Shown in pieces: positions 2,554 to 23,828 of a stretch of DNA of 24,756 bases. Source of the DNA: Baffinella frigidus (Eukaryota > Cryptophyceae > Cryptomonadales > Baffinellaceae); contig MU646318.1 of the NCBI GenBank assembly GCA_026770585.1, forward strand, positions 152,264 through 177,019. Direction: 5' to 3'. Each line of letters starts with the position of its first letter. The stretch's first letter is position 1. The position numbers were made by a program, and so were the translations under genes. The notes below the pieces were generated by a model, which was given only the letters and a program-made list of their open reading frames with translations, did not search any database and was not told the origin of the DNA.

Positions 2554-3079
2554 ACCTTATCGCGCGCGATCTTGGGCAGCATCGAGGACGAGGGCGACGC
2601 CCTGCCCACACGGGAAAATGCCGGTTATTAAATTCGGCGTTTATGTTGACGAAGGCACCGATAGTGGAGGGGGGCGCGCCGCTTTATGTGGGGGGGGGGG
2701 CGAGTTTTACGGTTCCTACGGATACGGTGACGCAAAGTCGGTGGGCCATCCGCCGAAAACCCCTTCGTAGCCCGCTGTGTGGGGAGGGGGAGGCAGCGCA
2801 CCTGCGGGCATCCGCCTCCCTGCATCTTTATGGGGGGGGGGGGGGCGGCGGTACGAGCGTATATGAAGGGGGGTTAGTAGGGTTTATGGGGTTAGAACCT
2901 GCGCGCGGCTGCCTGGGAGACAGGGCTCCGGCGGTGCTGGAAGGAGGGGGTCCCCGGGGGCCCGAGCGGTGAGGGCGCCTGGTCGTAGCCCCTGCAAGCG
3001 TTGAGGAGGTGAGAGGTTTATTTCCCCTATGTTACGTATTTTACGCATCGTCTTGATCCTCTTAATTGTATTTTCCTAG
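2554..3079 (+). other. Intron-like stretch upstream of exon 3080
   Basis: This contains long G runs (2693, 2829) and a repeat beginning GCCCGAGCGGTGAGGGCGCC, which recurs at least five more times to 4320. Its end has a branch-point-like CTTAAT and TTTTCCTAG just before the exon at 3080. Frames here are interrupted or shifted by homopolymer runs, and I support no separate gene. Confidence 0.5.
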
Positions 3080-3313
3080 GTGCGGAGGCTACCCGCGCCA
3101 CTTCGGACCCCATCGGGTTGGGTCGGGGAGCGCATCCGCAGATTGTGGAACAGCCCCGCCGGCAGGCTCGTGAACGCCCATGTGACCGGTCACGCGGACG
3201 CCGAAGCCAGACGGTCGGTCGTGACTGCCTTGCGTGTACGGGGGGCGATGGTGCGCCGTCCAACCCCCCACCCCAACCGTCTCCTCAAGAGCGAGGCGGG
3301 TGTGGCCTTCGAG
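3080..3313 (+). CDS. Internal exon of an unidentified gene (78 codons)
   Basis: The segment lies between an excellent acceptor (TCTTAATTGTATTTTCCTAG|) and a consensus donor (GAG|GTGAGTG). It is open in phase 0 from edge to edge, with high third-position GC. The product is Arg-rich and basic, containing IRRLWNSPAGRLVNAHVTGH near the middle and HPNRLLKSEAGVAFE at the end. I do not recognise the family; the LWNSPAG piece recalls mitochondrial pyruvate carriers but the sequence after it does not follow them. Neighbouring exons were not found. The acceptor region is duplicated about 510 bases downstream (3560-3593). Confidence 0.6.
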
Positions 3314-3476
3314 GTGAGTGTAATACACAGCACCACAGCTCCACGCTGCCCATGCAGATGTCCATGGTCACCTGACTTGGCAGGTTGACCCTTGTTTTTC
3401 GGTGCTGGGAGGAGGGGGGGCCCGGGGGGCCGAGCGGCGAGGGCGACTGGTTGCTGCACCTGCAAACGTTCATAGG

Positions 3477-3566
3477 GTTTCCCTTATTTTGCGTATCTCC
3501 CTTATTTTACGTATTTCCCTTATTTTCCGTATTTCCCTTATGTTACGTATTTCCCGTCTCGTCTTG
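3477..3566 (+). repeat. Tandem ~20-base repeat in the intron after exon 3080
   Basis: Four to five units of TTTCCCTTATTTTACGTA type, with small variants, lie inside a diverged copy of the acceptor region of the preceding exon. Confidence 0.75.
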
Positions 3567-3594
3567 GTCCTCTTAATTATATCTTTGCTAGGTC
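3560..3594 (+). repeat. Acceptor echo of exon 3080
   Basis: The sequence from CGTCTTGGTCCTCTTAATTA to TTGCTAG repeats 3049-3079 with few changes and also ends in AG followed by GT. It could be the next real acceptor (an open stretch VPSDEGAWSLALQG follows) or a non-functional duplicate. Confidence 0.6.
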
Positions 3595-3700
3595 CCGAGC
3601 GATGAGGGCGCCTGGTCGTTAGCCCTGCAAGGGTGAAGGGGTGCAGGGGGTGAGAGGTACATGGTTGAGGGTTGCGGGATCCCTCACCCCTTCGTTACGC

Positions 3701-3852
3701 AAGCTTCCAGCCCTGGATGGCTTTTCTGGGCCCTGAAGCGGATCAAATCCCCTTTCGGGGCCTGAAAATTTTCAAAGTCTGAAAAGGGGGTGAGCGTAGA
3801 GGAGATTTGATCCGCTTCAGGTCCCAAAAAAGCCCATCAGGGCTGGAAGCTT
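3701..3852. repeat. Foldback element with ~49-base arms
   Basis: AAGCTTCCAGCCCTGGATGG at the left is mirrored at the right by CATCAGGGCTGGAAGCTT. The arms continue through CTGAAGCGGATCAAATC / GATTTGATCCGCTTCAG. It splits a copy of the local CTGGTCGTAGCCCCTGCAAG repeat. Confidence 0.85.
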
Positions 3853-3854
3853 GC

Positions 3855-4320
3855 CAAACTACCCTGGTCGTAGCCCCTGCAAGGGTTCAAGGCGTTGAGA
3901 GAACGCCCGTGTCTGGTTGATGGTCAACCTCTTTCGGGGTTGAGGAAACGCCCTGACCGAGGTTGAGGGTCAACATCTGCAAGGGGTGAGGGGGTGCCCG
4001 GGGGGGGCGAGTTGATCTCCATACAAGTATTAATTAATTTCTTTCTGGCAACGAAAATTACTACACGGTTTGCTGATACAAGTAATAGTAGAGCATTTGT
4101 GTAGTAAATTTCGTTGCGCCAAAAGCAATTAATTAATACTTGTATGGAGGTTAGAGTGGCGCGGGCGCCTGGTCGTTGCCCCTGCAAGCGTTCAAGGGGT
4201 TCTAGGGGTGAGGGGTGGAGGACAAGCTCTGAAAGGGGTGAGGGTCAAACCCAAAAGCTCTGAAAGGGGTGAGGGTCAAAGGGGGTTCCCGGGATCCCAA
4301 GCGGCGAGGGCGCCTGGTTC
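3855..4320 (+). repeat. Interspersed ~50-base intron repeat
   Basis: Several copies of GCGAGGGCGCCTGG plus TCGTAGCCCCTGCAAGGG occur at about 2965, 3430, 3598, 3862, 4157 and 4301. They are separated by GGGGTGAGGG-type runs and inserted foldbacks. No coding exon is supported. Confidence 0.65.
4017..4149. mobile_element. Complete foldback MITE, ACGAAATTTACTACAC family
   Basis: This is the best preserved copy of the family. It starts CTCCATACAAGTATTAATTA, ends TAATTAATACTTGTATGGAG, and has GCAACGAAAATTACTACAC and its mirror inside. At 133 bases nearly its whole length is two arms around a short centre. Other copies are at 962, 1655, 2298, 5811, 6062 and 20944. Confidence 0.85.
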
Positions 4321-4861: not shown

Positions 4862-5470
4862 GGGGGTTAGGGGTTAGGGTTCCAACCGTTTCAGGGTTTA
4901 GGGTTCAGACCCTTCAGGTTGTTCAAATCCTGTAGGGTTTAGGGTTTAGGGTCAAACCCTGTAGGATTCGAATCCGTTAGGGTCCAGCCCCTTTAGGGTT
5001 TAGGGTGTGGGGTGCAAAACCTTGAGGGTTTAGAGTTTGGGGTTCAAACCGTTCAGGGTTTAGGGTTTAGGGTGCAAACACTCAAGGGTTTGGGGCTTAG
5101 GGTTCAAACCGTTGAGGGTTTAGGGTTTAGGGTTCAAACCGTTTAGAGTTTAGGGTTTAGGGTGCAAACACTTAAGGGTTTAGGGTTTAGGGTGCAAACC
5201 CTTTAAGTTGAGGGTTTAGGGTGCAAACCGTTTAGGGTTTAGGGTGTAGGGTTGAACCCCTTTGGGTTTAGGGTTTAGCGATCAACCCCTTCACGGTTAG
5301 GGTTTAGGGTTCAGCCCGTGCACGTTTAGGGTGTATGGTCCAGACTTTTGAGGGGGGGGAACCCTGAAGGCTTCCTTTAGGGTTTAGGGTTCAGGGTGCA
5401 AACCCGTTAGGTTTAGGGTGTATGGTTCAAACCGTGCACGTTTAGGGAGTATGGTCCAGAGTGATTTAAA
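4862..5470 (+). repeat. Large telomere-like array with higher-order units
   Basis: About 600 bases of TTTAGGG variants are punctuated by CAAACCGTT, CAAACACTT or CAAACCCTT. They form longer units of roughly 35-40 bases (AGGGTTTAGGGTTTAGGG plus a CAAACC spacer). The higher-order structure argues for local tandem amplification rather than a captured chromosome end. Confidence 0.85.
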
Positions 5471-7191: not shown

Positions 7192-7217
7192 ACTAAATCC
7201 CACAACTCGGGGGGTGT

Positions 7218-7238
7218 ACGAGGTTGCGGCGGGGAACG
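7218..7238 (-). pseudogene. 3'-edge echo of the exon at 7463-7566
   Basis: Read on the minus strand, CCCCGCCGCAACCTC|GTACAC repeats the end of the exon at 7463-7566 (CCCTGCCGCAACCTC|GTACGC), including the donor. It lies downstream in the gene's direction, on the far side of the foldback at 7267. Confidence 0.7.
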
Positions 7239-7462: not shown

Positions 7463-7566
7463 GAGGTTGCGGCAGGGGACGTGGCACGGGCGAGCAGCTC
7501 CTCCTCTGTGTAGGGCGATTTCTCTGGCGCCATGGCGGACCCGCCATCCTCGAACATCCACATCAC
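7463..7566 (-). CDS. Exon 2 of unidentified minus-strand gene
   Basis: After TGCACTGCCAG| the frame opens in phase 0 with VMWMFEDGGSAMAPEKSPYT, then EEELLARATSPAAT. It ends at ACCTC|GTACGCC, phase 2. It follows the exon at 7793-8104 across a 226-base GT-AG intron with matching phase. It is acidic and alpha-helix-prone in EEELLARA. I do not recognise the family. The 3' edge is duplicated at 7218-7238. Confidence 0.55.
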
Positions 7567-8432: not shown

Positions 8433-8577
8433 ATGGCGAACCGGCCGATGCCCTCGTCCTCGGACTTCCTCCCGATGACCGACGACTCCGACGAAGAGCC
8501 GACCGACAGAGAAGCCGGTCCCTCGGCCACCCGCTCTGACAGACTCCCTCTGCCTTCAACCTCGTCTTTAGACGAGG
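8433..8577 (+). CDS. RING gene exon 1
   Basis: The ATG at 8433 lies in a good initiation context (CAAACATGGCG). It opens MANRPMPSSSDFLPMTDDSD and an acidic Ser/Thr-rich stretch ending SSLDE, with very high third-position GC. The donor after 8577 (AGG|GTTGAC) is weak. It is chosen because phase 1 fits the next exon; without splicing the frame stops at 8582. The minus strand is also open here but lacks a comparable start. Confidence 0.6.
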
Positions 8578-11500
8578 GTTGACGACAACATGCCCCGTCC
8601 TATCCCCCCCTGCAACCTCAACACCCAGCGCTCTGCCCCCTTTTGAATCCATCCACATGCCACGCCCTACCCCGCTGCTATCCGAGTGGGTGGGTTCCTC
8701 ACGCCAGTCTACCGTTAGGCGGGGCATATTGTTGCTGCTAACAAAACGCGCCGACGAGCAGCGTGCTCCACCAGGCAGCTCGAGCGCAGCGCTCGCGCGC
8801 ACAAGGAGCTCAAGAAGAGCGGGGGGACGGTAGCCCCTAAAACCTGACCCTCAACCCCTAAACCCTAAAAACTAACCCTAAAAGGGGTCTTAGAACGTGC
8901 TCAGGCTTGTCCTGCAATCAATAAACTCTCTCTCCTAAAAAACCGTCGGCGGGCAGTCCGGGCAATTCCGCGAGGGGCTAGCGCGTCTTGCGCGTGCTGA
9001 CCCTAAACCTCTGGTCGGCGGGCAGTCGGGGCTCTTCCGTGAGCGGCTGGCGCAGGCGCAGACGTGGGGGAAGATGGAAGACATCGAGGAGCAGGCGAGT
9101 CCAAGTCCCGCTCGCTCAGCTCAGCTGTGTGCACTCGTTTCATCCTGCCCCACACGCGTTGCAGCGTGCCCTGAGCTGACCACGTCACCCACCAGCAACC
9201 AGTGGCAGCCTATATCGGGTAGTCGCAAGGATTCGGGTATTCTATTTGTTTTAAATCTTTCCTATGACCCTACACCACGCAGGGCTGGAGGGGGGGGTAT
9301 TCCAAGGTCATTTTTTGAGGGAAAACGGTACTCAAACGTCAATTTTGAGAACAAAACGGCTCCAAGGGCGCCCCAATGGCTCAAAGGGCGCCCCTGGAAT
9401 ACCCCCACGTAGCCCCCTGTGTGGGCAGGATGCCGAAGGGACCTGAAATTGCTGATGGGAGATACCGAAGAGATTTCTTCGGTTTGGTTGAAAATTACTA
9501 CAGTACCCGACCCGGTTATAAGTTGCTACGGATTGCTGGTGGACTTTTGTGCACAAACTTGGGGAAGAGGGGGGACATCGAGGAGCAGGCGAGTCCAAGC
9601 TCAACCCTAAAGTCTAAAGCCTAAAGTTTAAAGTCTGAAGTCTAAAGCCTAAACACTAAACACTCACTAAACCCTACAACCTAAAACCTGAACCCCAAAC
9701 CCTGAACCCTTAACCCCAAACCCCAAACCCTAAGCCCCGTCCTTCGGGTCCTTGAGGTTGTTTACCTCCCACCATACGCGGAAGCGAGACCTTGTTCTCG
9801 ACCAGCCTTACCACCTACTAAGCTCGTGAGGCGATCCCAAGCCCCGTCCTTGAGGTCCTTTCGGTTCTTTTAACTCCCACCACAGGATGAAACTGGAACT
9901 TGTTCTCGTTCGGGCGAAGCGCCCTTCGCTCAGCGAGTCCAAGCTAGAGACAGAGTTTATGGATCACAAGACCAGCCTGATCACGTAGTAAGCTTCGTTC
10001 GGGAGAAGCGCCCTCAGCGCTTGCGCTCAGGTGTGGGACTGCATCCGTTCCAGGCTGGTCGGGTAATCAAGAAACTCTCTCGTTTCAGCTTACCCCGTAC
10101 GAGCTGACCGCACCACATGCGTCGCCTGATACTCTCGTCACATGTGCAGGGGTGGGCGTATGTTCTGAACACTTACGCGATACGGCAGGTTCAAAGATAG
10201 GCGTATGTTCGCGCGCCACATGCGCCTCCTGATATCCGCATAAGGCTAATTTATGGAGGGGGAAGATGGAGGCGCATGTTCTGAACAAATGCACGATTTT
10301 ACTGCGGCAGATCTGCTCTGTCGTGGGGCAGCTGGGGCGGCTCCACGGCGCGCTCACGCAGCGCAGCGCCCGGGAGGAAGCTAAGAAGGTGTGAATGACT
10401 CCTCGTTAAATTCATTTAGATGCTCTTTGTACTGAAGCGTTTCCGCGGAATCTTGCTGTTAATGGCGTGCTCACGCAGCGCAGCGCCCGCGAGAAAGCCA
10501 AGAAGGTCTAGCATCGACCGAAACCACCGAAGACAGTTTCCCTCTTTTACGTGTTGCGCAGATTATTGAGGACGTCCGAGTAGAGGCGCAATCGCATGCG
10601 CGGGTATGGCGTGAAGATGTATCTAGTTATGAAGAACTTAGATACATTTAAATGCTCTTTGTACTGGAGCGTTTCTACGGAGTCCTGGTCTAAATGGCGC
10701 GCTCGCGCAGCGCAGCACCCGAGAGGAAGCCAAGAAGGTCTCTCTGTTTTTATTTTGGACAGTTCTTTCTTGTTCTCTGCTTTTCTAAGAAAGTCTCTCT
10801 CCTTTTCTCATTACCCCAAAAATGATTCTCGTTTCCCGCCGGCGTGTTTCCTGGGCAATAAGCTCTGATGATGACCGTGGATTTCTAGAGTTGCCGTGAC
10901 TCATTCCATTCCTCCCATTTCAACTGCCAACACCCCCCCAAACACCTCGCAAGAAAAAAGTCAGGGCATTGATGTACCCTCCCACACACCACCAGGACGC
11001 CTCCGCGAGGGACCCGCCGCCCCCCGCAGACTGGCAAGCCCCCACCTCTGGAACCCCTTCCCAGAAGTCTGTGTCAGAACCCAGGTTGACATGCTGGGGT
11101 CTTTGCCAGACCCCAGCAAGCTCAACCCTACAAAACTTTAGGGTTCAGCTTGGACAACTTGACAGACCCCAATTCGACAGGCCCCCAGGCGAGCCACTCG
11201 AGCGCTGACAGGCGTCACTGAAAGTGGCGACCCCCCATCGTCGGAACCCTGGCTCTGTCTCACACTGATTTGGGGTTACTTTTCTGGCGAGTCCGGGCTC
11301 GGTTTTGCTCCTCATAAAGACTGGCAAGCCACACGAGGCTATCCATGCGAACAGAATAAAATAGCATTTTAAAATTTGTGGGGAAATGATCACGTTTCCG
11401 TACGGATGTCCGTACGGAAACGTGATCAAATGCTGACTTTTGGCGTGTTTCCTGGGCAATAATCCAATAATTAACTTATGAATCTGTTCGCATGGATAGC

Positions 11501-14500
11501 CTCGTGTGGAGCCCCCACGCCCCCGCAGACCCGAACCAGGTCTCAAAAATGTTTTGCAGAAACTACAAGCTCTGACCTTTAGCCTGTGAAGGCATTGGCG
11601 GCATTTCTTACAACCACCTCCTGCCTCCGGACCCCCCCCGAAAAGTCTGTTTGACGAATCTAAGGTGGGAAATAACAGAGAGCTCGCCACCCCTCACCCG
11701 CGGCGGCACTCTGGGCGGCAGGGCCAGCGATTCTGATGTCCAGGGTCGGAGGTCCCAATCCTACCCTCCTACCTAGAAAGCACACTGCCCCTGACCCGCG
11801 CAGTGGACGGCAGGGCCAGCGACAGGGAGGGGCTTCTACAGGCCAACCGCAACCTGGTCGCCAAGGTACACTGCTCTGCACCAACTCTTAATCCTCTTAT
11901 TGGCATTGTTATACGTTAGTCCTTATGGTCCTTATGTTTCCTCTTAATCCTCTTAATATATTCTTTTCTGAGACACGTGCGATGGCGTTCACACCAAGGG
12001 TTTGGCGAGCTACCCTCCTTGAATTTAGTCCTCTGGCTGAATATAGTCGCGCAACAGGTCCGTTGGAACGCGTAGGTGTTTGTAAAAATGTGTGATCTCA
12101 CTTCAGCAGCACCGATGCTCGTGAAGCTGGGGTCGGTTCGTGACGTCACTCACGAGCAACGCCTGTATGCAATCCATCAACACTGCTATTCTTAGCCCCC
12201 CCCCCCTCAATGTCGCGCACAGACTGTTTCTCCTTTCTCGATCTCTCGCTCTCGCTCGCTCTCTCTCTCGCTCGCTCTCTTTCTCTTCTCTCGCTTTCTC
12301 TCTCGCTCTCTCTCTTTCTCTTCTTTCGCTTTCTCTCTCGCTCTCTCTCTCGCTCTCTTCTCTCGCTTTCTCTCTCTCTCTCTCTATTGATTACTACGAA
12401 ACCCATCCGGTGCGTGATCACAAGTTCTTACTCCGTGCCTCGTGTGCGCAGACCGAAGAGCTCTAAACTGTCGAACGCACATAATCCTTCGCCCTTCGTA
12501 AAGAGACTTTGCGTGAAGCGACTGTAAAAGGAGCTCTCGAAGAGGAACGTCCGTCTCTCGATCATCCTTTTGGCACCACCATTTTTTAATTGTAGAAAAC
12601 GTTACACCCAGCGAAAGCTCGGTTCTAGAACCGAGCGCCCGTCTGCGGCTTAGGATCGTTTGCAGGGTCTAACGTCTTCTAGAACAGATCGAGGAGCTCT
12701 CGAAGCGAAACCTCCGGCTCTCGAAGCAGCTCGACGAGCAGACCACCTGCAAGATCTGCTACGGGCAGGTGAGATCCTGCTCAGACATAGCCTCTCAGCC
12801 GACTGTGGTTTACCTCGATCAGATTACTACTGCTGTCTCGGTGTTGTCGGAGTTCTCCTCCCACTCACACAGACCACCTGCAAGAACTGGATACAGAATT
12901 AAGATATACCGCGTGCTCAAGAAGTAAAAGAATGAATCAGTTTGGATTTAATACAAGCATCATTATTAAACCAGAAGGCAATACTAACTTTATTAAAAAC
13001 ATTAAAAGAAAATTAACCGCATATGTGAAGAGTGACGATGAAAAGAAATTAAGAAATGATTTGGATATTAAAACCATCATTGATAAACACCAAAAACAAA
13101 AGGGATTATGTGCGCTTTGTTCTTGTGAATATAGTTGTTCGAATTACTCTAAATTTAGTAACGATCAATTTTCTATAGATAGAATTGATAGCAAATTAGG
13201 ACATACCAAGTCCAATTGTCAAATGGTTTGTTTTGGTTGTAATAGACAAAAAGGAAATGCGATATAAAAATGATTCAATAAAGTATATATGTAATATGAC
13301 AGATGATAAAATAGCATTGATAGCGCAAATTATAGATGGTGTTTTTACATTTTCAGGGTGCTACACGGCCAGGTGAGATCCTGCTAGAAACAAGAAACGG
13401 TGCATTTATTGCTGATCGAAACCAACATGGCCATCATGTAGTCCCTTCCGTAGGACCGAAACGCCAACTGCTTAGACACAACCTCTGTGTGGGTGTATCC
13501 CTTAAGAGGCCAGCGGGTCATATTTGCCCCCCAGCAGGTTGTAGGTCTCTGCTTCAATAGGCCTAACTAGGATACTCAATACTTGAAGGATGCATGGCAG
13601 CCGTGTCGGTATCAATTATTACAAGGGTATCAATTATTACGACCGCCCCTAGAGTGGTCATGTGCTCCAAAGACTAGCCCCAGTTTATGGTTTATGGTTT
13701 ATGGTTTATGGTTGAGTGGTTAGGGTTTCGGGACGAGTCTATGTGCTTTTCAAGTCGCGAAATAATTCAAAGTCACTTTATTGACTTTGATCTATTTCCA
13801 AACCACATGGCTTCAGCCATAAAACAATTTTCAGACGGGAATCATGTCGAAACGTTGCGTGTATTAAAAAAAATTGCTGCTAAACTTAATTCAATTAAAT
13901 TCGCAACGTTTCATTATATTTCACACAATTCGAGCTGAAAGTGGCCGTAAAACGTTTTAGGGCAACTTTGCATTAAGAATTCTGTATTTTGTCACAACAT
14001 AGATACCAGCCTTTGGGTTTAAGGTTTAGGTTTTAGGGTTTAAGGTTGAGGGTTGAGGGTTGAGAGTTGAGGGTTGAGGGTTGAGGGTTGAGGATTTAGG
14101 GTTGAGGGTTTAAGGTTTAGGGTTTAGGGTTTAGAGTTCAGGGTTCAGGGTTTAGGGTTAAGGTTTAAGGTTCAGGGTGTAGGAACCTGCATCGGTGCAC
14201 CTCCTTACTTTCGAGTAACCCCTGTACCGTCTCTTTATGACTTACCGACTGAGAATTGACCACCTGCGAGGTCAACCCAGGGCTCATCTGTCGTTTACTC
14301 TGCTCGCTCTGACAGTCCATCATCTGTCCTCTCCTCTCCTCTCTCTGACAGACGATCTCGGCACTGCTCCTCCCATGCCTCCACATGGAGCTCTGCCTCA
14401 CATTCCCCTCTCAGATTTGGAGTCGGAGTTCCCCTCCCAGAGTCGGAGCCGGAGTTCACATCCTACCCACACCACCCACAGGGCTGCGGTGTAAATCCGT

Positions 14501-15824
14501 CAACTTTGGAGCTGAAAAGAGCCCAAATAGTCAGTAACGGAGCCAAGTCTTTCTTTCTGACAGACGATCTCGGCACTTCTCCTACCGTGCCTCCACATGG
14601 AGCTGTGCCGCCCGTGCGCCCTGCGCGTCGAAGGGTCCGGCGCCGCCTGCCCCTTCTGCAAGGTGCGCCCTTTAGGTCCTTGATGTTCTTCGAGCTCCCA
14701 ACATAGGCGGACACCGGAACTTGTTCTGCAAAAACGCCATGCTTTCTTTCGGATCACATTCATGCCCCCCGATGCAAAGGATCGCGCCTACGGTTAAGTT
14801 CAAAGTGAAAAAAATTAATTTAGATTCGACTAGAATTGGCTTTTCTACAGAACAAGTTCCGGTGTCCGCCTATGTTGGGAGCTTGTAGAACCTAAAGGAC
14901 CTAAAGGATTGCCTCTCTCACAAGGAGACGGCCCCTCCTAGGAGCCTACGGTGTATTCCGTAAGTGGCGGCCCTACCGTAGGGCCCTAGGACCTGCCTAG
15001 GACCTCTTGGCTGTCAATTTTGACCGCCTCGCCACTTAAGGCGTCGAGGGCTCGGGGGCCTGCCGCTTCTGCAAGGTGAATTCCCGAAAGCCTCACCCGT
15101 GTGCACGGTGTAATCCCGAAAGCCTACGCTAGCGGTGGACTTTCGAGCGGAAAGTAGCTCGGGCTCACCAAGTTGGTGAGCCCAAATAGCCTGAGGCAGC
15201 GCTACAGGGGTACCTAGGTCATAAGAAACTGCCCCCCCGTAGGACCCTATAGTAGAGTCCTATGCCTAGGGCCCTATGGTGTCCTAGGGGGGGGGGGCGG
15301 TTTCATATGAACGAGGTACCCCTGTAGGAGACAGCTCCTCATCACCAACGTAGTGCGTCATTCGATTCCGTCTCTGCAGTCTTTTTTACGGAAGGGCGTG
15401 TCGTTGGGCTATGTTGGGCGAAATCAAATCCTAAAGGACCTAAAGGACGATGCCCGTCCCGTTCAAAACACTGCAAGGTACCGTGTGGAATTCTTGCCCA
15501 AGAAACACGCCAAAAGTCGGCAATTTGCCACGTCCCACCCCGAATTTCCGGGGAGGGACGTGCCCAGTAGCTTACCGAGTGGTGATGCATGCCCGCGAAG
15601 TCCGACGTTCCAGCGTACAGGGGTACCTCGCTCCTCAGAACCCCCCCCCCCCCCTAGGACCACCGTAGGGCCCTAGGCATAGGCCTGCTGTAGGGTCCTA
15701 GGGGGGGGCGTTTTCTTATGAGCGAGGTACCCCTGTAAAATAATTCGGGTGATGGGAGCAGGTCAAGGTCCGCGGGGTGCTCATCGCGAGGTCGTTCCAC
15801 GATCTCTCCCCGACGTGCCCGTGA
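8433..15824 (+). CDS. Coiled-coil protein with C-terminal C3HC4 RING finger (multi-exon gene)
   Basis: Exons placed by frame, splice sites and phase: 8433-8577, 8762-8829, 9026-9094, 10311-10388, 11804-11865, 12688-12768, 14564-14662 and 15762-15824. The exon at 11804 needs one preceding base while the previous exon ends in phase 0, so one small exon between 10389 and 11803 is probably missing here. The product (over 220 residues) has an acidic Ser/Pro-rich N-terminus, then charged helical segments that likely form a coiled coil. It ends with a RING finger whose metal ligands are CKIC, CLH, CRPC and CPFC, the C3HC4 order. RING proteins of this build are usually E3 ubiquitin ligases; substrate and location are unknown. 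Almost every exon has partial copies in the adjoining introns. Splice assignments are inferred without transcripts. Confidence 0.75.
8762..8829 (+). CDS. RING gene exon 2
   Basis: A branch-point-like TGCTAAC sits 20-odd bases before GACGAGCAG|. The exon then reads CSTRQLERSARAHKELKKSG, and ends ACG|GTAGCC in phase 0. Basic, helical, coiled-coil-like. A nearer AG at 8774 or 8778 is an alternative start. Confidence 0.55.
8830..8943 (+). repeat. Intron with short telomere-like tract
   Basis: AACCCTAAA-type repeats (8838-8881) follow the donor directly. The remainder shows no feature apart from AATCAATAAAC. Confidence 0.6.
8944..8982 (+). pseudogene. 5'-edge echo of RING exon 3
   Basis: CGGCGGGCAG|TCCGGGCAAT..TCCGCGAGGGGCTAGCGCG repeats the acceptor and first third of the exon at 9026 with substitutions, about 70 bases upstream of it. 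Confidence 0.75.
9026..9094 (+). CDS. RING gene exon 3 (GC donor)
   Basis: Reads SGLFRERLAQAQTWGKMEDI then EEQ, phase 0 at both ends, from GGCGGGCAG| to GAGCAG|GCGAGT. The donor is GC rather than GT but otherwise fits the extended consensus, as known for the minor GC-AG class. The same GCGAGT is preserved in the 3'-edge echo at 9559. Confidence 0.65.
9287..9408. repeat. Imperfect inverted repeat in intron 3
   Basis: GGGGGGTATTCCAAGG is mirrored by GCCCCTGGAATACCCCC. The interior holds a doubled CAAGGGCGCCCC / CAAAGGGCGCCCC. This is a probable decayed foldback. Confidence 0.5.
9559..9599 (+). pseudogene. 3'-edge echo of RING exon 3
   Basis: TTGGGGAAGAGGGGGGACAT..CGAGGAGCAG|GCGAGTCC copies the end of the exon at 9026 with its GC donor and the first intron bases. 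The 23 bases from GACATCGAGG are identical. Confidence 0.85.
9600..9733 (-). repeat. Telomere-like repeats (CCCTAAA strand)
   Basis: CCTAAAGTCTAAAGCCTAAA-type, then ACCCTAAACCC-type units, run in the orientation opposite to most arrays earlier in the window. Confidence 0.8.
9734..9990 (+). repeat. Direct duplication in intron 3
   Basis: AAGCCCCGTCCTTCGGGTCC..CTTGTTCTC (9734-9800) recurs at 9838 as AAGCCCCGTCCTTGAGGTCC..AACTTGTTCTC. CGACCAGCC..CTAC and GACCAGCCTGATCACGTAG are matching right parts. The second copy carries an inserted GCGAAGCGCCCTTCGCTCAG segment. It is related to the AACTTGTTCTGCA end of the foldback at 14667. Confidence 0.6.
10154..10186 (+). pseudogene. Acceptor echo of RING exon 4
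   Basis: GTATGTTCTGAACACTTACG..CGATACGGCAG resembles GCATGTTCTGAACAAATGCA..CTGCGGCAG just before the exon at 10311. Here the AG is followed by unrelated sequence. Confidence 0.5.
10311..10388 (+). CDS. RING gene exon 4
   Basis: Bounded by TGCGGCAG| and AAG|GTGTGA, phase 0 throughout, reading ICSVVGQLGRLHGALTQRSA then REEAKK. Amphipathic helix. Its 3' half is copied twice downstream. Confidence 0.65.
10464..10507 (+). pseudogene. 3'-edge echo of RING exon 4, copy 1
   Basis: GGCGTGCTCACGCAGCGCAG..GAGAAAGCCAAGAAG|GT matches the exon's last 40 bases. It is preceded by TTTAGATGCTCTTTGTACTG, which also precedes copy 2, so the duplicated unit includes intron sequence. Confidence 0.85.
10696..10739 (+). 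pseudogene. 3'-edge echo of RING exon 4, copy 2
   Basis: GGCGCGCTCGCGCAGCGCAG..GAGGAAGCCAAGAAG|GT is a third version of the exon's end with donor. It has a different set of substitutions from copy 1. Confidence 0.85.
10740..11328 (+). other. Long intron segment, no gene assigned
   Basis: This has pyrimidine-rich and AT-richer sequence, then C-rich sequence with several possible acceptors (CCCCCGCAG at 11026, GTGTCAG near 11083). The missing small phase 0-to-1 exon of the RING gene may lie here or in the following 450 bases. I could not choose one. AGACTGGCAAGCC at about 11027 recurs at 11318. Confidence 0.5.
11329..11509. repeat. Foldback with nested perfect palindrome
   Basis: The outer arms CCACACGAGGCTATCCATGC..GAACAGA and TCTGTTCGCATGGATAGC..CTCGTGTGG are about 30 bases. 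Inside, 11388-11427 is a 19-base perfect inverted repeat with a 2-base spacer (GATCACGTTTCCGTACGGA). The flank AGACTGGCAAGCC..CCCCCAC also exists uninterrupted at about 11027-11045, apparently an empty site. Confidence 0.85.
11434..11463. repeat. GGCGTGTTTCCTGGGCAATA motif, shared
   Basis: The same sequence occurs at 10843-10862 and inverted at 15489-15516 (TTGCCCAAGAAACACGCC), so it is part of a dispersed element. Confidence 0.6.
11691..11731 (+). pseudogene. 5'-edge echo of RING exon 5
   Basis: CACCCGCGGCGGCACTCTGG..GCGGCAGGGCCAGCGA resembles GACCCGCGCAGTGGACGGCA..GGGCCAGCGA at the start of the exon at 11804, about 105 bases upstream of it. The acceptor AG itself is lost. Confidence 0.65.
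11804..11865 (+). CDS. RING gene exon 5 or 6
   Basis: From ACCCGCGCAG| to GCCAAG|GTACAC, 62 bases, phase 1 in and 0 out: one split codon, then DGRASDREGLLQANRNLVAK. Charged, helical. The entry phase implies an unplaced exon before it. Confidence 0.55.
11866..12529 (+). other. Intron with CT-rich microsatellite
   Basis: No exon is supported. TCTCGCTCTCTC-type repeat fills 12236-12388, and open frames over it (SLSLSL on plus, RERERE on minus) are artefacts. TCCTCTTAATCCTCTTAAT near 11938 resembles the acceptor region of the exon at 3080. Confidence 0.7.
12530..12563 (+). pseudogene. 5'-region echo of RING exon 6
   Basis: GGAGCTCTCGAAGAGGAACG..TCCGTCTCTCGATCA repeats GGAGCTCTCGAAGCGAAACC..TCCGGCTCTCGAAGCA of the exon at 12688. 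It lacks a usable acceptor. Confidence 0.7.
12688..12768 (+). CDS. RING gene exon with first zinc-ligand pair
   Basis: 27 codons in phase 0 to GGGCAG|GTGAGA: IEELSKRNLRLSKQLDEQTT then CKICYGQ. A leucine-heptad helix leads straight into the first Cys pair of the RING, typical of C-terminal RING proteins. The acceptor used here (GAACAG|ATCGAG) is the one that keeps phase. CTTCTAG| five bases earlier is an alternative if the previous phase differs. Confidence 0.7.
12870..12885 (+). pseudogene. First part of an interrupted echo of the CKICYGQ exon
   Basis: CAGACCACCTGCAAGA is identical to 16 bases of the exon at 12688. The copy stops here and resumes at 13359 beyond an AT-rich insert. Confidence 0.8.
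12886..13358 (+). mobile_element. 473-base AT-rich viral-like insert
   Basis: The insert is much richer in A+T than either side and interrupts a duplicated RING exon. Nearly all of it reads as one plus-strand coding tract in two frames: a short helicase-like tail, an HNH domain, and after a frameshift a further 33 codons. No terminal repeats or clear target duplication are seen, so capture of a DNA fragment during break repair is as likely as transposition. Confidence 0.75.
12932..13267 (+). pseudogene. HNH-nuclease domain, frameshifted, giant-virus-like
   Basis: The 111-residue frame has a zinc-ribbon HNH layout: C60-x2-C63, then FSIDRIDSKLGHTKSN (residues 80-95), then C100-x2-C103-N. This matches HNH endonucleases often found in large DNA viruses of protists. 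The frame is open upstream of the ATG and there reads RYTACSRSK (12902-12928). This resembles motif VI of superfamily 1 helicases, so the piece may be the tail of a helicase-HNH fusion. It stops at 13265. Similar AT-rich coding sequence continues in the next frame from 13254 to about 13353 (including NMTDDKIALIAQIIDGVFTF), indicating a frameshift. Probably a non-functional endogenous fragment. Confidence 0.75.
13359..13385 (+). pseudogene. Second part of the interrupted RING exon echo
   Basis: TGCTACACGGCCAGGTGAGA..TCCTGCT matches TGCTACGGGCAGGTGAGATC..CTGCT at the exon's end and donor (12757-12782). Together with 12870-12885 it forms one exon copy split by the insert. Confidence 0.8.
13386..13734 (+). 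other. Intron segment, no gene
   Basis: No exon is supported. There is a doubled GTATCAATTATTAC (13609, 13627) and a TTTATGG tandem (13685-13713). Confidence 0.6.
13735..13960 (+). other. Second AT-rich island with open frame
   Basis: From about 13738 the composition turns AT-rich and a plus-strand frame reads SREIIQSHFIDFDLFPNHMA..SAIKQFSDGNHVETLRVLKK..IAAKLNSIKF, ending at 13938. No family is recognised. GAAACGTTGCG / CGCAACGTTTC form a hairpin within it. It may be another foreign fragment like the one at 12886. Confidence 0.45.
14010..14185 (+). repeat. Telomere-like array
   Basis: GGGTTGAGGGTTGAGGG, then GGTTTAGGGTTTAGGG variants, lie inside the intron between the two RING half-domain exons. 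Confidence 0.85.
14345..14397 (+). pseudogene. 5'-edge echo of RING exon with second half-domain
   Basis: CTGACAG|ACGATCTCGGCAC..TGCTCCTCCCATGCCTCCAC..ATGGAGCTCTGCC matches the exon at 14564 and its acceptor at 49 of 53 positions, then diverges. If its acceptor were used, the RING would be truncated after the His ligand region. Confidence 0.9.
14478..14535. repeat. Fragment of the CTAGCTCTGYCTC-family interior
   Basis: AAATCCGTCAACTTTGGAGC..TGAAAAGAGCCC matches the middle of the elements at 1951 and 19969. No termini remain. Confidence 0.55.
14564..14662 (+). CDS. RING gene exon with remaining zinc ligands
   Basis: Bounded by TTTCTGACAG| and TGCAAG|GTGCGC, phase 0, 33 codons: TISALLLPCLHMELCRPCAL then RVEGSGAACPFCK. 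It supplies C-x-H, C-x2-C and C-x2-C, completing C-x2-C-x11-C-x-H-x3-C-x2-C-x10-C-x2-C with the exon at 12688. Confidence 0.8.
14667..14907. repeat. Foldback element just after a donor
   Basis: CTTTAGGTCCTTGATGTTCT..CCCAACATAGGCGGACACCG..GAACTTGTTCTGCA is mirrored by TACAGAACAAGTTCCGGTGT..AACCTAAAGGACCTAAAG. The arms are about 70 bases. It starts four bases beyond the donor GTGCGC. Single-arm relatives are at 15838 and, more distant, 9747 and 9852. Confidence 0.85.
14908..15040. repeat. CCTAGG/CCGTAGG-rich imperfect palindrome
   Basis: CCTAGGAGCCTACGGTGTAT, then CCTACCGTAGGGCCCTAGGA, flanked by GTAAGTGGCGG / CCGCC..CCACTTAAGG. It has the same core as the foldbacks at 15205-17660. Confidence 0.5.
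15041..15080 (+). pseudogene. 3'-edge echo of the CPFCK exon
   Basis: GCGTCGAGGGCTCGGGGGCC..TGCCGCTTCTGCAAG|GTGAAT copies the end of the exon at 14564 (VEGSG..C-x2-CK), with donor and a short deletion. Confidence 0.85.
15100..15202. mobile_element. CTAGCTCTGYCTC-family fragment carrying a nested insertion
   Basis: GAGCGGAAAGTAGCTCGGGC..TCACCAAGTTGGTGAGCCCA then CCTGAGGCAGCGCTA is the family's right part. The TA-flanked foldback at 15205 is inserted at its terminal TA, so it arrived later. Confidence 0.6.
15205..15324. mobile_element. TA-flanked foldback, CAGGGGTACC family, copy 1
   Basis: Begins CAGGGGTACCTAGGTCATAA and ends GAACGAGGTACCCCTG, with TA on both sides. The centre is rich in CCTAGG / CCCTATGG. 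A TA target duplication fits Tc1/mariner-like mobilisation of a non-autonomous element (known for that superfamily; inferred here). Confidence 0.85.
15618..15735. mobile_element. CAGGGGTACC family, copy 2
   Basis: CAGGGGTACCTCGCTCCTCA to TTATGAGCGAGGTACCCCTG, TA on both sides, a 14-base C run and the CCGTAGGGCCCTAGG core. It ends about 25 bases upstream of the acceptor of the last RING exon. Confidence 0.85.
15762..15824 (+). CDS. RING gene last exon
   Basis: After GGGAGCAG| the frame reads VKVRGVLIARSFHDLSPTCP and stops at TGA 15822. A downstream copy of its second half (16075-16110) offers an alternative. A splice from GCGAG|GTCGTT to the AG at 16073 would give almost the same C-terminus. 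Confidence 0.6.
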   Translation, partial: VKVRGVLIARSFHDLSPTCP

Positions 15825-15837
15825 CTCCACGCCCTTG

Positions 15838-15898
15838 AGGTCCTTTAGGTTCTTCGAGCTCCCAACATAGGCGGACACCGCAACTAGTTCTGTAGAGA
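15838..15898. repeat. Single arm of the 14667 foldback
   Basis: GGTCCTTTAGGTTCTTCGAG..CTCCCAACATAGGCGGACAC..TAGTTCTGTAGAG lies directly after the RING stop codon. The second arm is not nearby. Confidence 0.7.
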
Positions 15899-15915
15899 GG
15901 CCACGCTCTGAGAAG

Positions 15916-16032
15916 AGTGAGAGAGCGAGCGAGCAAGCGAGCAAGCGAGCAGAGTGAGAGAGCGAGCGAGAGAGAGAGCTGAGTGAGAGAGCGGGAGAGA
16001 GAGAAGATTGAGGCGAGCGAGCGAGCGAGAGC
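15916..16032. repeat. GAGAGCGAGC microsatellite
   Basis: GA-rich low-complexity tract. Open frames across it are artefacts. It separates the last RING exon from its echo. Confidence 0.85.
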
Positions 16033-16074
16033 ACATCACCACGGTGCGGTGCTTTCTGACGGGCGCTTCGCAGT

Positions 16075-16110
16075 TTTCACGACCTCTCCCCGACGTGCCC
16101 GTGACTGCAC
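16075..16110 (+). pseudogene. 3'-part echo of the last RING exon
   Basis: TTCACGACCTCTCCCCGACG..TGCCCGTGACTGCACG matches 15795-15831 including the stop codon, and is preceded by CTTCGCAG. It may be an alternative terminal exon. Confidence 0.75.
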
Positions 16111-16136
16111 GCACGCGCGCGAAAACGCACGACTGC

Positions 16137-17875: not shown

Positions 17876-19066
<1,191 letters not shown>

Positions 19067-21335: not shown

Positions 21336-21488
21336 CTGCCCGGGCGCTCCGTGAACAGAGGGACGCTCCCGAGCCGCGCCTCGGGCGGAGACGCGTCGGA
21401 TCTCGCTGCGGCGCTCTTGGAGGAGGATCATGAGGCACCGGATGATGCCGACGACGGGATGGGGTACACCCTGAACCCTGACGAATGA
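21336..21488 (+). CDS. Acidic exon, possibly of the signal-peptide gene
   Basis: After CATCCCCGTGCAG| the frame opens in phase 0 with LPGRSVNRGTLPSRASGGDA, then SDLAAALLEEDHEAPDDADD. It either stops at TGA 21486 or splices at GATGGG|GTACAC (21463). The second is more likely because telomere-like sequence starts at once after it. Its entry phase matches the CAG at 19966. The composition (acidic, Ala-rich) resembles that protein, so it may be its next exon. Not recognised. Confidence 0.5.
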   Translation: MPGRSVNRGTLPSRASGGDASDLAAALLEEDHEAPDDADDGMGYTLNPDE

Positions 21489-22560: not shown

Positions 22561-22636
22561 CGGATTAGTTATCGACCACGCACGAACCCTGTCCGTTTCA
22601 GTTAACCATCGTGCGGGGAACTCCGTGGCACTGCCC
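22561..22636 (+). repeat. Left arm of a 1.2-kb inverted-repeat block
   Basis: CGGATTAGTTATCGACCACG..TTAACCATCGTGCGGGGAAC..TCCGTGGCACTGCCC has an inverted, moderately diverged copy at 23706-23780. A third partial direct copy (CCATCGTGCGGGGAACTCCG) is at 23020. Confidence 0.8.
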
Positions 22637-22970
22637 TCAACCCCGAACCCTGCACCCTCAACCCTCAACTCTCAACCCTAAATCCTAAACCCCAAATTCT
22701 AAACCCTCAACCCTATACCCTCAACCCTATTTCCTATTTCCTAAACCCTAAACCCTGAATTCTAAACCCTAAACCCAGCACCCTAAACCCTGCACCCCAA
22801 ACTCTGCACCCTAAACCCTGCGACCTAAACCCTGCACCCTGCACCCTAAACACCAAACCCGAAACCCCAACGCCTAACCCCCAACCCCTAAACCCTAAAC
22901 CCTAAACCCTAAACCCTCACCCCTAACATCGAACCCCTAAACCCTAAACCCTACACCCCACACCCTACAC
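22637..22970 (-). repeat. CCCTAAA-type telomere-like array
   Basis: ACCCTAAACCCTGCACCC and CCTCAACCCTA variants, with four pure CCCTAAA units near 22886-22915. Confidence 0.9.
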
Positions 22971-23013
22971 CAGGCGACGGGGATGGACTTCTTAGCCAAC
23001 GAGCGAGAACGAC
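22971..23013 (+). pseudogene. 5'-edge echo of the exon at 23131
   Basis: CAG|GCGACGGGGATGGACTTC..TTAGCCAACGAGCGAGAACG copies the acceptor and first 35 bases, then runs into a repeat of the 22561 arm. The duplicated unit is thus arm part, telomere-like repeat and exon start. Confidence 0.85.
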
Positions 23014-23130
23014 ACTTGACCATCGTGCGGGGAACTCCGTCCCATCAACCCTAACCCCTCAGCCCTTGAACCCTCACCCCTCACATCGAACCCCTCAACC
23101 CTAAACCCTGCACCCGAAACCCGAAATCAG

Positions 23131-23184
23131 GCGATGGGGATGGACTTCTTAGCCAACGAGCGGGAACGACTCGACGAAGCAAAG
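23131..23184 (+). CDS. Short coiled-coil-like exon (unknown gene)
   Basis: Between ATCAG| and GCAAAG|GTACAC, phase 0 at both ends, 18 codons: AMGMDFLANERERLDEAK. Charged and helical. Too short to assign. It is the only complete copy among four related segments. It might belong to the gene carrying the exon at 21336, but phase and the gap leave this open. Confidence 0.5.
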
Positions 23185-23482: not shown

Positions 23483-23622
23483 GATTCCTAGCGCTATCCC
23501 GGTCCACTCAGCGGACTTCGAAGGGGTTTTGAATAACCCCTAAGCGATGAGACCTACGACTCTACGGTAGGCAATCCGTAGGGACATAGGGGGGGTTCCT
23601 ACGGATCAGGTAACGGGCGTAA

Positions 23623-23665
23623 CCAGACGATGGGGATGGACTTCTTAGCCAACGAGCGGGAGCGG
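23623..23665 (+). pseudogene. Second 5'-edge echo of the exon at 23131
   Basis: CCAG|ACGATGGGGATGGACT..TCTTAGCCAACGAGCGGGAG, then telomere-like repeat. It may be the first half of one exon copy whose end is at 23809. Confidence 0.85.
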
Positions 23666-23705
23666 ATTTAGGGTTGAGGGTTGAGGGTGCAGGGTTGGGG
23701 GCTAA

Positions 23706-23780
23706 GGGTAGTGCCACGGAGTTCTCCGCATGATGGTTAACTGAGCCGCCCAGGGTTTGTACGTGGACGATAACTAACCG
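23706..23780 (-). repeat. Right arm of the 1.2-kb inverted-repeat block
   Basis: Inverted copy of 22561-22636 (GGGTAGTGCCACGGAGTTCT..GATAACTAACCG). Confidence 0.8.
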
Positions 23781-23808
23781 CCAGATTCCTAGCGCTGTCC
23801 CAGTCTAT

Positions 23809-23828
23809 CGGCGAAGCAAAGGTACGAG
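23809..23828 (+). pseudogene. 3'-edge echo of the exon at 23131
   Basis: CGGCGAAGCAAAG|GTACGA matches CGACGAAGCAAAG|GTACAC at the exon end and donor. Confidence 0.65.

Follow-up and report, generated by a model that had tools for sequence, protein, structure and literature searches.

Many exons in the genome of the cryptophyte Baffinella frigidus were found to be accompanied, in their own adjoining introns, by partial copies of themselves in a polar order, the front parts of an exon lying upstream and the back parts downstream of the intact exon. The pattern was recognized in a stretch of 24,756 bases, hereafter the window (contig MU646318.1, positions 152,264 to 177,019 of the forward strand, C16 in the present numbering), of GenBank assembly GCA_026770585.1 (382 Mb, 1,364 contigs), and was also found at exons of the kinesin family elsewhere in the genome. 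The window contains a RING-finger gene on the plus strand (Pfam zf-C3HC4_3, 5.3e-12 with the exons joined), an LC8 dynein light chain gene on the minus strand (Pfam Dynein_light, 6.7e-44 with the exons joined) and at least two additional candidate genes, both without Pfam support. Gene models of the window were built from open frames and splice context, and the exons referred to below are predicted exons. The pattern is probably the outcome of frequent and roughly uniform local tandem duplication, together with selection that keeps one intact exon.

Partial copies of exons in the window

By self-BLAST, pairwise alignment and ungapped matches, partial same-strand copies were established in the adjoining introns or flank of six of the seven RING exons (exon 4 weakly), of the last LC8 exon and of the exon at 23131 (Table 1). 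RING exon 1 (8433) had no copy in the window. A preliminary description of the window had listed the RING exons at 9026, 10311, 11804, 12688, 14564 and 15762 as flanked by partial copies, and self-BLAST and alignments bear this out for all of them, for 11804 weakly. It had further placed copies with acceptor and exon 5' part mostly upstream and copies with exon 3' part and donor downstream. Upstream, the copies at 8944 and 14345 have this composition and that at 11691 has it weakly, but the copy at 10154 consists of intron and acceptor with essentially no exon (16/17), and that at 12530 carries the exon 5' part without the acceptor. Downstream, the composition holds for 9559 and 15041, and the copies at 10464 and 10696 carry the exon 3' part, but the copy at 16075 has the stop and 3' flank in place of a donor, and that at 13359, with the 3' end of exon 5 and the donor, is only the right half of a copy whose left half lies at 12870-12889, on the other side of an AT-rich insert. 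Two copies of the last LC8 exon (18236-18262 and 18431-18463) were found. The exon at 23131 has the upstream copy, but its downstream copy is a complete exon and runs against the polarity; the copy of the exon at 21336 is present but weak, with about 10 exon bases, and for the candidate exon at 7463 a match of 29 bp (89.7%) to 7210-7238 was found.

For a systematic count, the screen used for exon stuttering by Hron et al. (PMC12954441) was adapted (blastn-short, cutoff 42.1 bits), the targets being the introns of all window genes and the two RING flanks; the window includes only part of each of two introns of the 23131 gene. A total of seven sense matches reached the cutoff, all adjoining their own exon (in five of 11 introns and, for one match, in the 3' flank), with no distal and no antisense match in the window introns. 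The source of the copy began or ended within 1 base of the exon border in all seven, and six of the seven were polar (p = 0.06). The top score among 50 shuffled sets was 30.2 bits, and at or above this level 11 of 12 sense neighbouring matches were polar (p = 0.003), two of them lying exactly at the shuffle maximum; the lone exception is the whole-exon copy of 23131, which is split by an insert. At the same level one antisense neighbouring match and one distal match were also obtained, both from an exon ending in sequence that resembles telomere-like repeats.

Counting of exon edges gave the same order. At a score of at least 28, seven of 10 acceptors had a copy upstream and one of 10 downstream, and five of 10 donors had a copy downstream and one of 10 upstream, both wrong-side edges belonging to the short 23131 exon; none of the 20 edges had an antisense copy. 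None of 1828 shuffled comparisons reached a score of 30, as compared with 23% of the real 40-mers across the whole window, and local repetition is therefore not limited to exons. Coverage of the 11 window introns by Tandem Repeats Finder ranged from 0 to 39%, with a median of 8%.

The codons of the window copies differ from those of the exons by 17 non-synonymous and 21 synonymous changes. A codon-position sign of copies staying coding was also considered: the counts of 7, 11 and 23 at the three positions deviate from one third (p = 0.002), but not from the 46% that we would expect for a dead copy facing a silently changing exon (p = 0.13), and this signal was rejected.

Polar copies of kinesin exons elsewhere in the genome

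Exons of the kinesin family were used for an independent test. The genome gave 83 matches to the kinesin motor family, and in the match table of contig C123 a single exon was repeated, with four matches in succession near kinesin positions 83-113. The sample was composed of 35 exon cores on 14 contigs, of which 11 (five contigs) were chosen for repeats and 24 (nine contigs) without such choice. A total of 34 copies were identified, of which 17 were upstream copies of front parts, 16 were downstream copies of back parts and one was neither, so that 33 of 34 were polar (p = 2e-9); antisense copies of these exons were absent, and no copy appeared in 350 shuffles. Within the unselected set, copies were found at six of 24 exons, on four of nine contigs, and all nine matches were polar; the other five contigs of this set gave no copy. 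The array on C123 (locus L034) consists of one intact exon, preceded by four front copies and followed by one back copy.

Altogether, copies were present on 10 of the 15 contigs examined (C2, C16, C23, C101, C112, C123, C197, C249, C506 and C657) and absent from C131, C481, C739, C834 and C941. The term 'genome-wide' thus refers here to one gene family and the window. Among 20 random genome stretches, 14 were all N, and the rest gave 761 scorable 40-mers, 26.5% of which had a local direct repeat; two candidate exons picked by eye in one of these stretches (L026) had no copy.

Copying of exons and of other sequences

The view that exons are special targets of duplication is not supported by the kinesin loci. 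In the unselected loci, six of 24 exons had copies versus 35 of 132 random non-exon 90-mers (p = 1), and in the selected loci eight of 11 exons versus 49 of 72 non-exon pieces (p = 1). On the basis of these equal rates, selected or unselected, exon targeting was rejected. What differs between exons and other sequences in the kinesin loci is the polarity: exon copies were polar by 33:1 and non-exon copies by 113:104 (p = 8e-8). Whole-piece copies made up one of 34 exon matches and 34 of 217 non-exon matches (p = 0.06).

In the window, a local copy at 42.1 bits was detected for five of 13 exons, for eight of 150 intronic pseudo-exons and for 46 of 150 non-genic pieces, repeat-masked targets being used for the pseudo-exons only. 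Exons showed no excess over the non-genic pieces (p = 0.55). Since the window had been singled out for its exon-copy pattern, the kinesin loci make the fairer test.

Probable local tandem duplication with selection, and its alternatives

Under the explanation by tandem duplication, pieces of tens to a few hundred bases would be duplicated at similar rates in and outside exons. When a duplicate overlaps an exon edge, one of the two edges would remain part of the intact exon, its duplicate being stranded in the intron, a stranded front edge upstream and a stranded back edge downstream. Such a copy, devoid of one splice site, would presumably be skipped by splicing and then decay through base changes, insertions and deletions, and later insertions. 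By contrast, duplications confined to an exon, and those that include a whole exon together with both of its splice sites, would alter the protein and be purged, so that selection would act as the filter. On this view the copies would be polar because exactly one intact exon must survive. The duplications themselves might originate from replication slippage, template switching or the repair of staggered breaks.

Tandem geometry was clearest in the kinesin family. At four of the seven copy-bearing loci examined, the homology, with the exon edge included, is longer than the spacing of the copies, the ratios of homology to spacing being 2.28 (L034), 1.33 (L035), 1.23 (L036) and 3.62 (L038). Since the homology spans the whole spacing as well as the exon edge, these four loci are true tandem arrays. 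Successive units are identical in 204/271 and 184/268 columns in L034 and in 219/253 columns in L035; the unit of L035 contains, by inspection, a foldback element, and therefore the whole stretch was duplicated. Within the window, a clear tandem geometry is seen on both sides of the exon at 10311 and for the upstream copy of 23131. Upstream of 10311, positions 10109-10131 match 10212-10234 and 10155-10171 match 10271-10287; downstream, both copies are preceded by a common 58 bp of intron (10406-10509 versus 10638-10741, 88/104). The repeat of 23131 extends before its copy at 22944, with 22885-22943 matching 23041-23100, a partly telomere-like sequence. The successive tandem duplications of the preliminary description, with one breakpoint in an exon and the other in an intron, are thus upheld at four of seven kinesin loci, and the copy pattern extends to nine contigs beyond that of the window, but most pairs within the window are unclear in this respect.

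Several observations weigh against this explanation. Among 15 window pairs tested for tandem junctions, seven show nothing; of the eight with p <= 0.01, two lie on telomere-like repeats, one lies partly on such repeats, one lies on a foldback element, and a single 18-bp match is common to two. In many window pairs the homology is limited to 29-58 bp, with unrepeated sequence between the copies. The polarity is broken by one whole-exon downstream copy (23618-23825) in the window and by one of the 34 kinesin matches. Exons of the window exceed the intronic pseudo-exons in copy frequency (p = 0.0013). The non-exon control for polarity is uneven, 43:66 in the selected and 70:38 in the unselected loci, since the pieces taken from a single array depend on one another; in the unselected loci alone the contrast between exons (9:0) and non-exons (70:38) is modest (p = 0.03). 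Finally, the evidence base is the sequence of one assembly, with one gene family beside the window.

Some of the window pairs could equally well be short repeats around filler, as are formed after staggered breaks. In such a process, nicks 30-60 bases apart, or insertions with a long target duplication, would be filled in and take up foreign filler, leaving short direct repeats that flank an insert; breaks near splice sites would survive, one of the repeats restoring the exon. The dimensions of most window pairs, whose copies lie 29-573 bases apart, fit this scheme, as does the unrepeated intervening sequence of seven of the 15 pairs, and in mouse cells breaks with overhangs of 43-50 nt are reported to give rise to small tandem duplications (PMC8355091). 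As a general explanation it is nevertheless unlikely in view of the full-span, multi-copy tandem arrays at the four kinesin loci and the geometry at 10311 and 23131. Staggered-break repair and tandem duplication can both be operating.

A mechanism that targets exon edges or splice sites and actively expands introns, for instance breakage coupled to transcription or splicing, would agree with the enrichment of window exons over introns and with the intron-side ends of most window copies, which lie within about 30 bases of a splice site. It is considered quite improbable, since exons of the kinesin loci are not enriched and the non-genic pieces of the window are copied about as often as its exons. 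Still less probable is an artefact of assembly, in which divergent haplotypes or read errors were joined head to tail: a faulty junction between two alleles would indeed yield polar partial copies, but the copies range from 75 to 100% identity, some with stops, indels and inserts, and form arrays of up to five per exon. Functional copies, serving as alternative exons or splicing decoys, can practically be set aside in spite of the intact acceptor or donor in many of them, since by inspection front copies are devoid of a donor and back copies of an acceptor, non-synonymous changes, indels and inserts are present, and random non-exon pieces are copied equally often.

Features of the window

Table 1. 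Exons, their copies and an insert identified in the window
Feature	Position	Strand	Evidence
RING exon 2, intact, GC-type donor by inspection	9026..9093	+	open frame, splice context
Copy upstream of exon 2: acceptor and exon 5' part	8945..8984	+	34/40 identical
Copy downstream of exon 2: exon 3' part and donor	9561..9599	+	36/39 identical
RING exon 3, intact	10311..10388	+	open frame, splice context
Tandem copy upstream of exon 3: intron and acceptor, essentially no exon	10109..10188	+	end at 10188 by inspection
Exon 3, downstream copy 1: exon 3' part	10464..10507	+	40/44 identical; 52.0 bits
Exon 3, downstream copy 2: exon 3' part	10696..10739	+	40/44 identical
RING exon 4, phase misfits exon 3	11804..11865	+	open frame, splice context
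Weak copy upstream of exon 4: acceptor region and about 17 exon bases	11677..11730	+	40/54 with gaps; 30.2 bits, equal to shuffle maximum
RING exon 5, intact	12688..12768	+	open frame; within P0001 coverage
Copy upstream of exon 5: exon 5' part, without acceptor	12529..12561	+	29/33; 34.2 bits
Exon 5, downstream 3' copy, left half	12870..12889	+	score 35 against 12739-12758
AT-rich (71%) insert splitting the exon 5 copy, HNH-type open frame	12890..13358	+	see text
Exon 5, downstream 3' copy, right half: exon 3' end and donor	13359..13388	+	pairwise alignment
RING exon 6, intact, RING core	14564..14662	+	Pfam zf-C3HC4_3 5.3e-12, joined exons
Copy upstream of exon 6: acceptor and 46 exon bases	14340..14397	+	53/58; 60 bits
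Copy downstream of exon 6: exon 3' part and donor	15041..15078	+	34/41 with gaps; 28.2 bits in stuttering screen, below shuffle maximum
RING last exon, intact, with stop	15762..15824	+	open frame, splice context
Copy downstream of last exon: exon 3' end, stop, flank	16075..16112	+	35/38; 46.1 bits
LC8 last exon, intact	17880..18013	-	Pfam Dynein_light 6.7e-44, joined exons
LC8 last exon, upstream copy of exon 5' part	18236..18262	-	ungapped match, screen
LC8 last exon, second upstream copy of exon 5' part	18431..18463	-	48.1 bits
Fourth gene exon, intact	23131..23184	+	open frame and splice context only
Copy upstream of 23131 exon: acceptor and 40 exon bases	22944..23013	+	62/70
Complete copy downstream of 23131 exon, split by insert of about 143 bp; polarity exception	23618..23825	+	23618-23664 (43/47), 23808-23825 (17/18)

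A small exon may be missing between RING exons 3 and 4 of the model, because the phase of exon 4 misfits exon 3. A homologue of the RING protein, P0001 (76% identity over 48% of the query), spans the region from the end of exon 4 to exon 6 in one open frame across the positions of the introns 11866-12687 and 12769-14563, and the agreement ends at the next donor; from the sequence, P0001 would be either a relative without both introns or a record derived from RNA. For the third gene, the homologue P0002 (56% over 63%) runs to the same point past the donor of that gene.

The frame within the insert at 12890-13358 gave a Pfam HNH match below the cutoff (0.00099) and a PHROG match to endonuclease VII (1.5e-11). 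Homologues with 82-83% identity are present on two contigs, of 1,108 and 900 bases, and in both the frame extends upstream; the insert is possibly of viral or mobile origin. One foldback element is present in copies at 14666-14908 and 15830-15907, each starting within a few bases of the end of the homology of an exon copy, in one case 3 bases past a donor and in the other about 6-8 bases past a stop. A foldback element of about 180 bp, at 11321-11512, has many copies elsewhere in the genome with 95-99% identity, and for this reason was probably active recently.

The insert in the downstream copy of 23131 (23665-23807) resembles, by inspection, sequence near 22561-22700 copied locally in inverted orientation, and local duplication may thus take place in both orientations. 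A six-copy local repeat family at 2932-4320 adjoins, by inspection, a possible unannotated exon at 3080-3312, which suggests that further exon copies are included in the sequence counted as non-genic. Many introns and non-genic parts contain degenerate repeats of telomere-like type (CCCTAAA and its variants), for example at 4863-5460, 14012-14186 and 22634-22971, in places directly beside exon copies and ahead of acceptors; in mammals, telomere-like arrays are reported to have been inserted at repaired breaks (PMC2246262).

A search of the window against Rfam at gathering scores gave no match. Viral contigs scanned with the end of a miniature inverted-repeat transposable element (MITE) and with LC8 and RING queries gave no confirmed relatives; the single match of the MITE end in the genome contig collection, to Acinetobacter, was not used.

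Relation to known systems

The preliminary description had held that no process of this kind was described. This has to be corrected, since exon stuttering has been described on chicken dot chromosomes (Hron et al. 2026, PMC12954441, February 2026) and a duplication across an exon boundary in potato (PMC4974935, 2016). Dot chromosomes are a class of small GC-rich chromosomes to which stuttering is mostly confined; it is reported in birds, and gerbils are mentioned (PMC12954441). The likeness is close: in chicken, too, sense partial copies of an exon edge with the adjacent splice site lie in adjoining introns as imperfect tandems, the source begins within 1 base of the exon border, coding exons stay intact and intergenic sequence is also affected. 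The exon part has a median of 36 bp in chicken and measures 32-46 bp in six of the seven matches at 42.1 bits or more and 27 bp in the seventh. The two differ in extent, with 3.4% of dot-chromosome introns in chicken as against five of 11 window introns and six of the 24 kinesin exons of the unselected set, which lie on unrelated contigs, here, and in copy number, with 1-44 (median 4) per expansion in chicken as against 1-5 per exon here. Coverage of introns by tandem repeats is 7-93% on chicken dot chromosomes, by chromosome median, as compared with the intron median of 8% here. Polarity is not stated as a rule for chicken in the available portion of PMC12954441.

In the potato gene, one tandem duplication across an intron-exon boundary turned the extra edge into a new exon and intron (PMC4974935), whereas here the edge is stranded in the intron, and many times. 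Intron gain of the Rogers type, by duplication of AGGT-containing exon sequence, likewise draws intron sequence from local tandem duplication, but requires an exonic segment to be duplicated and creates a new intron (PMC3443670), whereas here existing introns grow. Introners also add intron content by insertion, but as dispersed families (PMC9860276), unlike the present copies, which derive from the adjoining exon; within the window no exon copy of 42.1 bits or more was found in a distal intron, as a family dispersed across unrelated introns would give. The staggered-break duplications of PMC8355091 share the short direct repeats, there arising from breaks with 43-50 nt overhangs, but stem from experiments with mammalian cells and show no exon pattern.

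By analogy, we think that the pattern of the window and the kinesin loci belongs with avian exon stuttering, and it looks like a new case outside vertebrates. A protist-like case with equal rates in and outside exons is new within the literature searched for exon copies in introns. The copies can be mistaken for exons in domain searches and call for caution in gene prediction. Extended to the whole genome, and this only tentatively, the data could mean that introns were largely built by local tandem duplication and that each exon is accompanied by a polar fossil record of the duplications of its edges. Intron growth is poorly understood, and equal rates combined with a polarity confined to exons separate mutation from selection directly. 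The polarity rule is a simple test for other genomes; if the reading extended to the whole genome is true, front parts upstream and back parts downstream would generally mark true exons without annotation and serve as a clock for the growth of introns wherever a genome is unstable in this way.

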